The position numbers and the translations under genes were made by a program. 53,339 nt of DNA from positions 1 to 53,339 of the forward strand of contig JAFSXU010000046.1 of assembly GCA_017443895.1 (NCBI GenBank), given 5' to 3'. This document shows, piece after piece, positions 15,049-49,441 of the stretch. Source of the stretch: Clostridia bacterium. Lineage in GTDB: Bacteria > Bacillota > Clostridia > UBA1381. Each line of letters opens with the position of its first letter. Position 1 is the first letter of the stretch. The notes below the pieces were generated by a model. It had not been told where the DNA came from. It searched no databases and saw nothing but the letters and a program-made list of their open reading frames with translations.

Positions 15049-15492
15049 CTAAATATTTAAGTCATACTTTAAAATGCCGTCTAAAATTATATCGTCGGAT
15101 AATCCGCTCTGATACTCATTCCATGCATTGGCATCCCAAAGCTCAAGCCTTGTATTTGCGCCGACCAGCACCACATCTTTTAAAAGATGTGCATAGTCTA
15201 TAAGCCTCTTTGCAATTGCAACCCTGCCCTGCTTGTCCACAGAACACGCCGTTGCCTTGCCGAAAAACAGCCTTACAAACGCCGCCGCATTTTTATCTGT
15301 TGCGGTCGGAAGCAGGTTAATCTTCTGGCTCATCAGCGCCCATTCTTCTTCTGTGTAAATATAGAGACACCTCTCAGACGGCGATTGCGTAACATACACA
15401 GTTGTACCCAAAATCTCACGGATTTTGCTGGGCATTATAATTCTGCCGTGATCATCTAACTGTCTTTCGTATTCGTCAACAAAATTAGCCAC
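15049..15492 (-). CDS. mraZ: MraZ transcriptional regulator / division protein
   Basis: First gene of the dcw transcript. MraZ is an AbrB-like DNA-binding protein that forms a ring and controls its own operon. Two SpoVT/AbrB-like halves are visible: [22 protein letters not shown] and [22 protein letters not shown], each with the D-x-x-G-R signature. The start is uncertain. GTG 15492 gives 147 residues and an N-terminus ([11 protein letters not shown]) like that of other MraZ proteins, with AAAGG about 12 bases upstream. ATG 15570 would add 26 residues and has GGGGAG only four bases away. Family length and the position of the promoter favour the GTG. Confidence 0.92.
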
Positions 15493-26485: not shown

Positions 26486-26830
26486 TTATCCGTATGCTTG
26501 TAATTTTTCTTTCAGTGTTAATTCAATCAATTTTGCTAACGGTATGTTTTCACTGCTCGCCGCCATGCTTGCCTTTAACCAAACTTCGGGGTCTAACTTT
26601 AAAATGATTTCGGTATCAAACGGTTTTTCAGGCTCCATACCCTCATCCTTACACATTTGTAAATAATCATCAACCGCAAACTCAAAATCTTCTTTTAACT
26701 CTTTTATACTTGATCCCTCGTATGATACCAAGCTCTTTATTCCCAACAATTTGCCATGTAACACATCATCAGCCTGAGAATAATTAACACTGCCGTAATA
26801 TCCCTTATACTCCATTATATTATCCATCAT
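26486..26830 (-). CDS. hicB: HicB-family antitoxin
   Basis: A 114-residue antitoxin. The partly degraded RNase-H-like HicB fold is recognised by MEYKGYYGSVNYSQADDVLHGKLLGIKSLVSYEG, then ELKEDFEFAVDDYLQMCKDEGMEPEKPF. The C-terminal part (LDPEVWLKASMAASSENIPLAKLIELTLKEKL) is a ribbon-helix-helix-like DNA-binding segment, suggesting autoregulation. Its ATG overlaps the hicA stop by 4 bp (ATGA). A second in-frame ATG (MEYKGYYG) five codons in could be the true start. Confidence 0.92.
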   Translation of the reverse strand: MMDNIMEYKGYYGSVNYSQADDVLHGKLLGIKSLVSYEGSSIKELKEDFEFAVDDYLQMCKDEGMEPEKPFDTEIILKLDPEVWLKASMAASSENIPLAKLIELTLKEKLQAYG

Positions 26831-27078
26831 ATCAAATCACTCTCCTTTAAGACATCTATCAAATCTTGAATTTGATAATTTGCAAGCTCCTTTCTCGGGT
26901 GAGGTCTGTGCAAATCAACCGCAAGATTACCTCGCTTAAATCTCACTCTTGAACCACTTGTTTTTCCTTTGTTGCTCTTTTCAAAACCAAGGTATACAAG
27001 CAAGCTTGATGCCTCATCATAAGTAAAGTCTTTTGGTTTTTGTAATAATCTCTGTATTAGTTTTTCTTTCTTGCCCAT
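26827..27078 (-). CDS. hicA: HicA-family mRNA interferase toxin
   Basis: An 83-residue HicA-like toxin with the small double-stranded-RNA-binding fold, encoded just ahead of its antitoxin as is usual for hicAB. The core GFEKSNKGKTSGSRVRF has Arg (R44) where classical HicA proteins have the catalytic His of the GSH motif; nearby His residues are in LHRPHP (57 and 60). This GSR form occurs in a recognisable subgroup, so activity is not excluded. The start was set at ATG 27078, seven bases after GAGGAG. A consensus promoter lies at 27098-27126. Confidence 0.88.
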   Translation of the reverse strand: MGKKEKLIQRLLQKPKDFTYDEASSLLVYLGFEKSNKGKTSGSRVRFKRGNLAVDLHRPHPRKELANYQIQDLIDVLKESDLI

Positions 27079-27097
27079 AACTAAACTCCTCATTTTT

Positions 27098-42943: not shown

Positions 42944-43237
42944 ATGACAGAGGTTAGGTTTTTGCCGCCCGCCGCAAAATATTTAAAGAAACTAAAAGAC
43001 AAACGCTTAAAAGAGCTATTTAAAAATGCAATTGACAAAATCCGGGAAGACTACACCGCAGGCGAAGCAAAAACAGGGGATTTGAGCGGTGTGTTCGGAT
43101 ATGATATTTATTATAATAAGACAAATTATGAGCTTGCATACACGGTTGAATATCAAAACGACAGGATTATTGTAATAATTATGGCAGGAACGAGAGAAAA
43201 TTTTTATGAGCAATTAAAACGGTATATGAAAAGATAG
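42944..43237 (+). CDS. RelE/ParE-family toxin
   Basis: A 97-residue toxin of the RelE/ParE fold. EVRFLPPAAKYLKKLKDKRLKELFKNAIDKI, then DLSGVFGYDIYYNKTNYELAYTVEYQNDRIIVIIMAGTRENFYEQLKRY: the central beta sheet and the C-terminal A-G-T-R-E-N-FY motif are characteristic. RelE members cleave mRNA on the ribosome, ParE members poison gyrase; the sequence does not settle which. GGAGGAA precedes the ATG. Confidence 0.9.
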   Translation: MTEVRFLPPAAKYLKKLKDKRLKELFKNAIDKIREDYTAGEAKTGDLSGVFGYDIYYNKTNYELAYTVEYQNDRIIVIIMAGTRENFYEQLKRYMKR

Positions 43238-47178: not shown

Positions 47179-47267
47179 GCCGATGTGGCGGAATTGGCAG
47201 ACGCCCGGGACTTAAAATCCCGTGGGAAGAAATTCCCGTGCCGGTTCGACCCCGGCCATCGGCACCA
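47179..47267 (+). tRNA. tRNA-Leu (anticodon UAA)
   Basis: An 89-nt type II tRNA with encoded CCA. The acceptor stem is GCCGATG/CATCGGC; the anticodon loop CTTAAAA sits in a CGGGA/TCCCG stem, giving anticodon TAA; the long variable arm is GTGGGAAGAAATTCCCGT-like; the T arm has GGTTCGACCCC. The last 25 nt are duplicated at 47337-47361. Confidence 0.97.
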
Positions 47268-47278
47268 CTTAAAAACCC

Positions 47279-47302
47279 ACCCCACTGGTTTTACAGTGGG
47301 GT
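47279..47302 (+). terminator. Terminator-like hairpin after tRNA-Leu
   Basis: ACCCCACTG-GTTTTA-CAGTGGGGT, a 9-bp stem followed by GTTGTTGTTT. Closely similar hairpins recur at 47561-47587 and 49410-49435. Confidence 0.75.
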
Positions 47303-47336
47303 GTTGTTGTTTACAAAAGGAAACATTGCTGTAACA

Positions 47337-47361
47337 GGTTCGACCCCGGCCATCGGCACCA
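47337..47361 (+). repeat. 25-nt duplication of the tRNA-Leu 3' end (attachment-site scar)
   Basis: Exact copy of 47243-47267, from the T-arm to CCA. A detached tRNA 3' end is the usual footprint of a tyrosine-recombinase element that integrated at the tRNA. The two copies are only 94 bp apart, with the terminator-like hairpin between them, and no integrase gene is present in the window. Confidence 0.85.
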
Positions 47362-47560
47362 TGTCGGAGTGAGTTCCATAATGCTCACTCCGATTTTTTA
47401 TGCAAAAAATCAGAGCTCGTCTATTTCGCTACTCCTCCTTTTCCGAAACCGGTCTCGGCAAGTCGTGTTGTTCGCTTATAAATGCGCTCACTGCCACTTT
47501 GTTGCCTACCAACCGTTTTCGGGCTTTGGTGTTTTAGGATGCCTCTTTGTTAGTATATAA
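47362..47560. other. Non-coding accessory sequence between the tRNA scar and the cassette
   Basis: About 200 bp with a hairpin GGAGTGAG...CTCACTCC followed by GATTTTTT (47365-47398), which looks like a terminator, and then sequence without a convincing gene. From 47512 it becomes the left member of the direct repeat that recurs at 49361. A possible 63-codon frame here has no ribosome binding site and is not called. Confidence 0.55.
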
Positions 47561-47593
47561 ACACCCCACTGTTTTGCAGTGGGGTGTTGTTGT
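47512..47593. repeat. Left direct repeat of the accessory cassette
   Basis: ACCGTTTTCGGGCTTTGGTG and the following 60 bp, including the hairpin ACACCCCACTG/CAGTGGGGTGT (47561-47587), match 49361-49441 with scattered differences. The hairpin differences are compensated (CCCCACTG versus CCCTACTG arms). Confidence 0.75.
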
Positions 47594-47646: not shown

Positions 47647-47871
47647 TCAGTCTGCATTGTCATTGTCAGGCAGAAACTCCATTATATCAGACAGGTCACA
47701 GTTAAAAATACTGCATAGTGAATTTACGGTGTATGTTGATACAGACTCATCATTCATAAGCCGTTGAATAGTTTTATTATCTAAGTTGTATTTCCCACAC
47801 TTATTTCTCAGGTAGTAAGTGCTGATGTTTCTCTCCTGTATCAGCTTTCTAAATGGCGCAAATGAAATCAT
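47647..47871 (-). CDS. Small XRE/Cro-type HTH regulator
   Basis: A 74-residue single-domain regulator, MISFAPFRKLIQERNISTYYLRNKCG, then LDNKTIQRLMNDESVSTYTVNSLCSIFNCDLSDIMEFLP. The order of helices and the ending CDLSDIMEF are typical of small Cro/XRE proteins found beside toxin-antitoxin, restriction and mobile genes. ATG 47871 is preceded by GAGG. It is divergent from the Nmad3-like gene, and the 110 bp between them contain a consensus promoter and a 20-bp palindrome, so it most likely represses the cassette. Confidence 0.88.
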   Translation of the reverse strand: MISFAPFRKLIQERNISTYYLRNKCGKYNLDNKTIQRLMNDESVSTYTVNSLCSIFNCDLSDIMEFLPDNDNAD

Positions 47872-47883
47872 AAAGAACACCTC

Positions 47884-47912
47884 TTGACTTTTTATCTATT
47901 ATCTCATATAAT
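47884..47912 (+). promoter_or_regulatory. Promoter of the Nmad3-like cassette
   Basis: TTGACT, 17-bp spacer, TATAAT. The predicted start point (about 47919) is just upstream of the palindrome at 47926-47945. Confidence 0.85.
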
Positions 47913-47925
47913 TATGTAAAGATAA

Positions 47926-47945
47926 TATGAGGAATATTCCTCATA
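47926..47945. promoter_or_regulatory. 20-bp perfect palindrome, likely operator
   Basis: TATGAGGAATATTCCTCATA reads the same on both strands. It lies just after the predicted start point of the cassette promoter and between two divergent genes, where a Cro-type dimer would block transcription. Confidence 0.75.
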
Positions 47946-47980
47946 CATTTGTCATATTATTAAGAAATGAGGTAATGCAA

Positions 47981-48763
47981 ATGAAACTGATACTAAGCAG
48001 AAAAGGAATGGACAGTACTGCCGGAGGAATGGCAAGCCCCATACTTCCCGACGGTACGCTGTTGTCGCTACCTATACCCGATAATGACAGCAGATTGAAG
48101 TATAGCGATACTATCTATGACGGCAAAAGCTACGCAGAAATTATACAGGAATTAAAGCCTAATTTTGCTTTTAACGAATGTAATTTCTGCCACCTTGACC
48201 CTGATATAAGAGAAGATATTTCTCACCCGAAAAATTGGAAACCTGCGTTTGGTCAGCGTAGCACTTCTGCCATATTCCTTGACAATCAAGGTGTTGGTGT
48301 GGGTGATGTGTTTCTGTTCTATGGTTGGTTCAGACAAACTGAATATGACAGTAACGGGAAACTGCGCTATGTAAGAGGCGCAAAGGATTTACATATTATA
48401 TATGGCTATATGCAGGTAGGCAGTATTGTAAACGGTGATGATATAAAAAGCTACGACTGGCATCCTCATTCTAAATGGTCTGATAAGACTAACCGCCTAT
48501 ATATTCCAACCAATGAACTATCATTCGCTAACGGCACAAAAGGCTATGGCATACTAAAATATGACAAGCGAAATACTCTGACTAAGGAGGGTTATAGCCG
48601 TTCAAGGTGGGATATGCCCGAATGCTTTAACAGCAGTGTAAAAATTGCGGGCTGCGGTGACTGTTTCAAAGACGGTTACTTCCAATCCCCAAGCAGAGGT
48701 CAGGAAATTGTCTTTGATGTAAATGACAGTATTATGGAGTGGATAAAAAAGATTGTATTGTGA
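47981..48763 (+). CDS. Nmad3-like protein (nucleotide modification associated domain 3)
   Basis: A 260-residue soluble protein. The opening MKLILSRKGMDSTAGGMASPILPDGTLLSLPIPD is the characteristic start of Nmad3-family proteins, which were defined by association with DNA base-modification genes of phages and mobile elements and have no established activity. Later conserved-looking parts are CNFCHLDPDIR, QGVGVGDVFLFYGWFRQ, LHIIYGYMQVG, SRSRWDMPECF and GRGQ-like SPSRGQEIVFD; Trp, Asp and His are frequent around 100-190. ATG 47981 was chosen because GAGG lies nine bases upstream and the family starts there; the frame is open further upstream, but that part covers the palindrome. It leads a three-gene operon. 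Confidence 0.82.
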   Translation: MKLILSRKGMDSTAGGMASPILPDGTLLSLPIPDNDSRLKYSDTIYDGKSYAEIIQELKPNFAFNECNFCHLDPDIREDISHPKNWKPAFGQRSTSAIFLDNQGVGVGDVFLFYGWFRQTEYDSNGKLRYVRGAKDLHIIYGYMQVGSIVNGDDIKSYDWHPHSKWSDKTNRLYIPTNELSFANGTKGYGILKYDKRNTLTKEGYSRSRWDMPECFNSSVKIAGCGDCFKDGYFQSPSRGQEIVFDVNDSIMEWIKKIVL

Positions 48764-48771
48764 GACGGAAA

Positions 48772-49056
48772 ATGAAACTTGAACTTGTAATGCACTGTAA
48801 TCAAATTAGCCTTGACACCTATCCCACCAACCCGGACGGGAAAGTGTATTGTCGTAAAAATAATAAGGTTATGATTACTACTATAGAGGACTGTCAGTAT
48901 TGCCCTTATTTTCGCGGAGCGGATAGGGGCGACTGGCTTCTGTGCGAATGGACAGATGTAGCCGTTCCTCACAGTGTACGCCATATCAGGTATGGCAATG
49001 CGGCGGAGGAATATAAGCGTGTAAATGAACTTATACACTTGGGCGTGTTAAAATAG
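48772..49056 (+). CDS. Small Cys-rich protein of the cassette
   Basis: A 94-residue protein not assigned to a family. Five cysteines, C9, C27, C41, C44 and C58, include a CxxC pair (DCQYCPYFRG), suggesting a zinc- or metal-bound knuckle. The C-terminal 35 residues are basic and helical (VRHIRYGNAAEEYKRVNELIHLG). It starts 8 bp after the Nmad3-like stop, so the two are translated from one message. It may be a nucleic-acid-binding partner; that is inference from the cysteines and position. Confidence 0.75.
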   Translation: MKLELVMHCNQISLDTYPTNPDGKVYCRKNNKVMITTIEDCQYCPYFRGADRGDWLLCEWTDVAVPHSVRHIRYGNAAEEYKRVNELIHLGVLK

Positions 49057-49092
49057 CTTATTGAAAACTCGGAGGTTAGGAGGTATATTGTT

Positions 49093-49293
49093 ATGAACAA
49101 AGACAAAGTAAGTATGCTTGACATCGTAGCAAAAAAGCAAGGTAAGACAGTTGCTCAGATGTTTGCTGACAATCCTGCGCCTGTTATTGGCGTAAAAGAG
49201 GAAAAGCTACCTGCACCGGTGTATTTCCCTGACCCCGATGCCACTCCGGAGGAGATACGCAAACTCATTGACAGCCATGATAAAGATAAATAA
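49093..49293 (+). CDS. Short acidic protein at the end of the cassette
   Basis: A 66-residue protein: a helical start (KVSMLDIVAKKQGKTVAQMFADN), a Pro-rich middle (KLPAPVYFPDPDATPEE) and a charged end. It has an excellent Shine-Dalgarno (TTAGGAGGTAT) and lies 36 bp after the Cys-rich gene, followed by the operon terminator. Size, acidity and place recall small antitoxin or anti-restriction proteins, but there is no recognisable motif. Confidence 0.7.
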   Translation: MNKDKVSMLDIVAKKQGKTVAQMFADNPAPVIGVKEEKLPAPVYFPDPDATPEEIRKLIDSHDKDK

Positions 49294-49303
49294 TAGCGCC
49301 GTA

Positions 49304-49336
49304 TGCACCGATGTATATTATCGGTGCATTTTTTTG
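49304..49336 (+). terminator. Terminator of the Nmad3-like cassette
   Basis: TGCACCGAT-N7-ATCGGTGCA, a perfect 9-bp stem followed by eight T. Confidence 0.92.
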
Positions 49337-49360: not shown

Positions 49361-49441
49361 ACCGTTTTGGACTTTGGTGTTTTAGGATGCCTTTTCGTGA
49401 GTATATAAACACCCTACTGCCAAAACAGTAGGGTGGGTTTT
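49361..49441. repeat. Right direct repeat of the accessory cassette
   Basis: Matches 47512-47593, including TTTGGTGTTTTAGGATGCC and a terminal hairpin, here CACCCTACTG/CAGTAGGGTG (49410-49435) followed by GGTTTTTG. Together the two repeats bracket the regulator, operator and three-gene operon. Confidence 0.75.

Follow-up and report, generated by a model that had tools for sequence, protein, structure and literature searches.

The Nmad names probably go back to Iyer et al. 2013, which may already describe the Nmad3 fold. Nmad3 is a family without known activity that was named by its neighbours, and a literature search finds no experiment on it. The 2020 survey of EVE/DCD domains (PMC7641849) and the 2024 census of McrBC (PMC11090510) leave Nmad unmentioned. 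Elsewhere under the Nmad name, a phage missense change in Nmad5 altered escape from Tmn immunity (PMC11846954), and a 2026 study has an NMAD protein, its Nmad family unspecified in the text, among predicted, unvalidated defence systems (PMC13092281). Proteins of the PUA fold, which will be of interest below, include pure readers. An enzyme is also among them, the ASCH amidohydrolase YqfB, whose triad is Thr-Lys-Glu (PMC6972931).

The locus examined here is a four-gene cassette containing Nmad3, located in a 53,339-nt stretch of DNA that we call the window. We read the cassette, with chances that we put close to even, as cargo of a mobile element, repressed by an HTH protein, in which Nmad3 would capture a modified base or nucleotide and act by way of a Cys-rich protein. 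What is new is the fold match of Nmad3 to the PUA superfamily, its neighbourhoods with Nmad2 and defence genes, the placement of the window's Nmad3 in an Nmad2-free clade together with an integrative element, and the recurrence of the acidic protein's tail on a tRNA-Leu element.

Cassette layout and predicted regulatory sites

An HTH gene (47647..47871, minus strand) is divergent from a plus-strand group encoding Nmad3 (260 aa, 47981..48763), a Cys-rich protein (94 aa, 48772..49056) and an acidic protein (66 aa, 49093..49293), with a tRNA-Leu gene nearby. A sequence-only reading had described this arrangement as a divergent Cro-type HTH gene facing an operon with five-Cys and acidic genes, a promoter, a 20-bp perfect palindrome and a terminator, and every one of these features is present where it was placed. 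The promoter found by scanning is sigma-70-like, TTGACT-17-TATAAT at 47884..47912 on the plus strand, scoring 11/12; the palindrome, TATGAGGAATATTCCTCATA at 47926..47945, is the presumed operator; and the intrinsic terminator, likewise from a scan, has an 11-bp stem and then a T run at 49303..49329 on the plus strand. A Markov model expects about 0.15 perfect 20-bp palindromes per 53 kb, and the window has this one plus one other. The other, CACATCTTTTAAAAGATGTG at 15172-15191, is within an ORF that reads like MraZ. The operon may be tightly repressed, as had been proposed; between the XRE and Nmad3 genes of other loci the palindrome at 47926-47945 does not recur. A longer Nmad3 ORF starting at 47927 was rejected because the homologues begin at MK.ILSRKG.

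The regulator is of the Cro/C1 type, its ORF (47647-47880, minus strand) matching PF13443 HTH_26 with E = 4.6e-11 and 43 bits against a 22-bit cut-off. Its length is 74 to 77 residues depending on the start, with the ATG at 47871 giving 74. The remainder of the window is core chromosome, with a cell-wall cluster, mutS, mutL and miaA recognized by reading the protein sequences by eye. The cassette sits in a core chromosomal region and not in a defence island, and its G+C content is close to average. By eye, there is also what appears to be a HicB/HicA toxin-antitoxin pair at 26486-27093, and a 97-aa ORF at 42944-43237 has the appearance of a RelE/ParE-type toxin.

The predicted fold of Nmad3

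The identity of the 260-aa protein as Nmad3 is borne out by the PF18754 profile, which matches at full length (1-247 of 247) with E = 8.8e-58 and 196 bits against a 27-bit cut-off. Nmad3 is the sole family that Pfam reports for it up to E = 1, so no EVE, YTH or ASCH profile is found, and a PDB sequence search has no match. Structure prediction takes this further. An AF2 model built with 60 homologues has a pLDDT of 95.2 and a pTM score of 0.92. VIA-align finds the top scores to EVE proteins, 2hd9 with Z = 7.8 (rmsd 3.8 over 136 aligned) and 2p5d with Z = 7.7, followed by the McrB N-domain (6p0f/6p0g, one of them bound to m5C DNA) at Z = 6.6, ASCH structures at Z = 6.1-6.3, the EVE-HNH endonuclease VcaM4I (6yex) at Z = 6.1, THYN1 with 5-methylcytosine DNA (5j3e) at Z = 5.8, and the YTH domains of Mmi1 and Pho92 at Z = 5.3-5.6. 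The first 26 rows, with Z = 5.2-7.8, are all PUA-like, and since nearly every row listed below them is also PUA-like the assignment does not depend on one chance match. Foldseek against the PDB, run independently, places at the top the N-domain of McrB in complex with m5C DNA and PH1033, an EVE protein, weakly at E of about 0.02, and among viral structures in BFVD there is no match to the model with E < 0.09. A PUA-superfamily barrel of the EVE/YTH/ASCH kind is thus strongly predicted for Nmad3 from the model, with VIA Z scores all under 8 and Foldseek E values over 0.01. Nmad2 and Nmad3 profiles align unconvincingly, with 2.7% probability, and we do not claim a common origin for them.

Because the structural matches are almost only to the PUA superfamily, Nmad3 is best read either as a reader of a modified base or as an enzyme built on the PUA fold. 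The earlier reading had suggested sensing of, or action on, modified nucleotides in a defence role; the predicted fold and the neighbourhoods of other Nmad3 genes support it as a predicted function. The alternative to a binding domain is that Nmad3 hydrolyses or otherwise alters a modified nucleotide on its PUA/ASCH-like barrel, in the style of YqfB. The invariant polar residues across 60 diverse Nmad3 sequences are S6, R7, K8, D11, H71, D73, Q92, D109, H161, H163, Q241 and E242, which is more than a pure reader would seem to need and counts against the reader interpretation. The SRKG and GDxF motifs by which homologues were collected inflate part of this invariance, but the remaining residues are not forced in that way, and several of the set H71, D73, Q92, H161-P-H163 and Q241-E242 are outside those motifs. 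There are ASCH structures among the fold matches, the ASCH fold includes the enzyme YqfB, and at 18 of 94 Nmad3 loci there is no close same-strand partner, as might be the case for a self-sufficient enzyme. Against this, the best-scoring structures are EVE and McrB readers and not YqfB. We favour the reader, and regard an enzyme as a serious rival, if a somewhat unlikely one.

Relatives, partners and mobility

Nmad3 is rare, scoring above the cut-off in 4 of the 391 class genomes and 5 of the 398 phylum genomes searched, the window's genome included in each, and in 4 of 70 genomes of the bacterial family. When viral and genome contigs were searched with the single Nmad3 sequence of the window, nothing was found; a search with an alignment found matches. 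A few IMG/VR contigs carry it and none of 50,697 INPHARED phage records does, making the family less typical of phages than the sequence-only reading had said.

What surrounds Nmad3 elsewhere was surveyed at the 94 loci mentioned above. Nmad2 (PF18753) is in the Nmad3 operon at 37 of them. Other neighbours are McrBC (three loci), a GmrSD N-domain protein, WYL-domain proteins (n = 8), Schlafen group 3 helicases, type I R-M subunits, a DNA methylase and ADP-ribosylglycohydrolases; these last are at two loci only, and a link to ADP-ribosylation was dropped as too thin. With PADLOC, 93 neighbour proteins of Nmad3 match 249 families as compared to 2 for 37 core proteins of the window, which, as the sets are unequal in size and the background is unmatched, is an indication of a defence context and not a measured enrichment. 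Recurrent neighbours of about 400-500 aa with no Pfam match were also seen, one group at 8 loci (L020:1714-3207 and relatives), mostly directly before Nmad2-Nmad3 in Bacteroidales, and another in L029:4367-5956 and L038.

With relatives placed among anti-virus genes, Nmad3 may help bacteria or mobile elements to distinguish foreign nucleic acid. The reverse role would be counter-defence, with Nmad3 shielding modified bases or blocking the type IV restriction of the host so that the element carrying it survives. Its presence on integrative elements and on the few IMG/VR contigs would suit that role, as would the small single-operator operon, an arrangement we take as typical of element cargo, but the company that most relatives keep, namely restriction genes, McrBC, GmrSD and WYL regulators, points to defence, and the phage records without Nmad3 also speak against it. 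We consider counter-defence quite unlikely.

In the Nmad3 tree the window joins an 11-sequence clade that is free of Nmad2 and includes all seven element sequences analysed (support 98/92), and Nmad3 genes from the window's own bacterial family are elsewhere in the tree, with Nmad2. Five of the loci (L047, L049, L056, L065 and L070) hold the same integrative element, about 8.3 kb long and inserted at a different place in each chromosome, with a homologue of the Cys protein present. The element encodes a Rep_1 protein, a protein of 75 aa, a divergently transcribed XRE regulator and Nmad3, then usually a lipoprotein, and after these the Cys protein, an excisionase of the AlpA-like kind, another XRE protein and a tyrosine integrase. 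Some copies have a small acidic ORF after Nmad3 that is unrelated to the acidic protein of the window. The Cys protein was not found at three further loci of the clade (L026, L050 and L086). Near the Nmad3 gene in the first of these, L026:1499-2158 has the appearance, by eye, of a uracil-DNA-glycosylase-type protein. The recurrence of partners anticipated by the earlier reading is therefore partial: a divergent HTH gene and the Cys partner recur on the integrative element, and the window's exact three-gene order, or an acidic partner of its kind beside Nmad3, was found at no other locus.

The Cys-rich protein and the acidic protein have no significant match in Pfam or other family searches. 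The five cysteines of the former are C9, C27, C41, C44 and C58, and its homologues in five Nmad3 loci, at 32-38% identity, have four invariant Cys; it probably binds zinc through them. A structure model of it was set aside as too poor, with a pLDDT of 51. Among 391 class genomes the Cys domain is found in only two others, both times fused to DUF1643 as the C-terminal domain (L111:570-1466 and L112:814-1779, in two Clostridia genomes), and these fusions link it to another uncharacterised family. It is absent from the IMG/VR and plasmid sequences searched, the sole match being to two Lysinibacillus phages, distant and partial. One of these distant relatives, in Lysinibacillus phage LysYB1 of the Herelleviridae (L113:3989-4273), precedes a large gene and the portal gene. 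No relative of the acidic protein turns up in 390 other genomes of the class. Its C-terminal 21 residues have an 81% identical counterpart in a gene fragment of genome G786, which belongs to the same bacterial family, so only the tail recurs. The fragment is on an element inserted in tRNA-Leu(CAA) (L137:1499-7745) that also has an FtsK-like protein, a Xis/excisionase-like gene and an integrase, and is bounded by a 124-nt repeat (81%) covering most of the tRNA-Leu.

The window may bear marks of a similar event, which had previously gone unremarked. ARAGORN places a tRNA-Leu gene (anticodon TAA) at 47179..47267 on the plus strand, presumed to be the former attachment site, and the repeat search finds its 3' 25 nt (47243..47267) in an exact copy 94 bp downstream (47337..47361, plus strand), with 0 such copies expected by chance, probably as an integration scar. 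Direct repeats of 55 bp, 89% identical, bracket the cassette at 47517..47571 and 49365..49419 on the plus strand, and have no other copy in the genome. Three related hairpins of the type CCCCACTG..CAGTGGGG are around the tRNA and cassette at 47278-47303, 47560-47588 and 49410-49435, and related sequence in the genome is only at this locus. A similar duplication of the tRNA-Leu 3' end is seen in a congener. Nmad3 is in none of the 4 congener genomes, which are 69-86% complete, and no clean empty site was found, the G773 contig ending inside tRNA-Leu and G774 and G775 having tRNA-Leu and then other sequence. At the DNA level, the tRNA is the only match to phages and plasmids.

No integrase gene was seen near the cassette, so that with its repeats it stops short of a functional integrative element. 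The claim that the module is self-contained is doubtful: it has neither a nuclease nor a recombinase, and looks like something carried by a larger element or left over from one. The cassette is probably horizontally acquired mobile-element cargo, and the simplest history would have it arrive on a tRNA-Leu element whose integrase was later lost. That it is a decayed remnant of such an element, kept by chance and with no present function, is very improbable, for although the duplicated tRNA end, the flanking repeats, the missing integrase and the tail-only relative in G786 would fit, none of the four ORFs is broken, a promoter, an operator-like palindrome, ribosome-binding sites and a terminator are all in place, and Nmad3 keeps all of the family-invariant residues.

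Possible mechanism and comparison with known systems

For the cassette as reader cargo, the HTH protein would bind the palindrome that immediately follows the promoter, holding the operon low until an incoming phage or element, for instance, relieves the repression. Nmad3 may then flip or capture a modified base or nucleotide in the pocket of its predicted barrel, and the four-Cys protein, perhaps with the acidic protein, could be the adaptor or effector by which the invader is blocked. Family searches with the four proteins find neither a nuclease nor an NTPase, agreeing with the earlier statement that the cassette has no nuclease, and PADLOC models have no match at E = 1 to any of its proteins; the missing nuclease counts against reader cargo, as do the core chromosomal setting and the three clade loci where the Cys protein was not found. 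A bolder proposal, which we rate as unlikely, would make Nmad3 the founder of an undescribed branch of PUA-fold base readers, in a mobile two-component immunity module with a single operator. Its partner there would be the four-Cys zinc protein that DUF1643 proteins also contain, and the module would recognise a hypermodified base or nucleotide and need no classical nuclease for its action.

A confident link to EVE, YTH and ASCH proteins gives this neighbour-named family a testable claim, that it binds or acts on a modified base. If that is true, a widely spread reader is added to the modification-sensing arsenal, since Nmad2-Nmad3 operons adjoin restriction genes across many phyla. The window cassette is intact, packs its promoter, presumed operator and two small partner genes into less than 1.7 kb, and would be a handy minimal version for cloning and assay.

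In comparison to its own family, the window protein matches PF18754 at full length with every invariant residue, but most partnered relatives pair with Nmad2 and its clade is without it. With PH1033, the McrB N-domain, VcaM4I, THYN1 and Mmi1 of the PUA superfamily it shares the predicted fold at the Z scores given above, and differs in being about 110 residues longer than EVE, in having 7-18% identity to the matched chains and no detectable sequence-family match, and in an invariant polar set of its own. Modification-dependent (type IV) restriction is approached elsewhere, where Nmad3 genes adjoin mcrBC and gmrSD-like genes, whereas the cassette lacks the nuclease or translocase that would accompany a reader in such an operon. 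The Clostridia element with Rep_1, Xis and tyrosine integrase differs from the window, which is without Rep, Xis, integrase and lipoprotein, has an HTH protein of another subfamily and a different gene order, but the two have in common a divergent XRE gene, an Nmad3 of the same clade and a homologous Cys protein.
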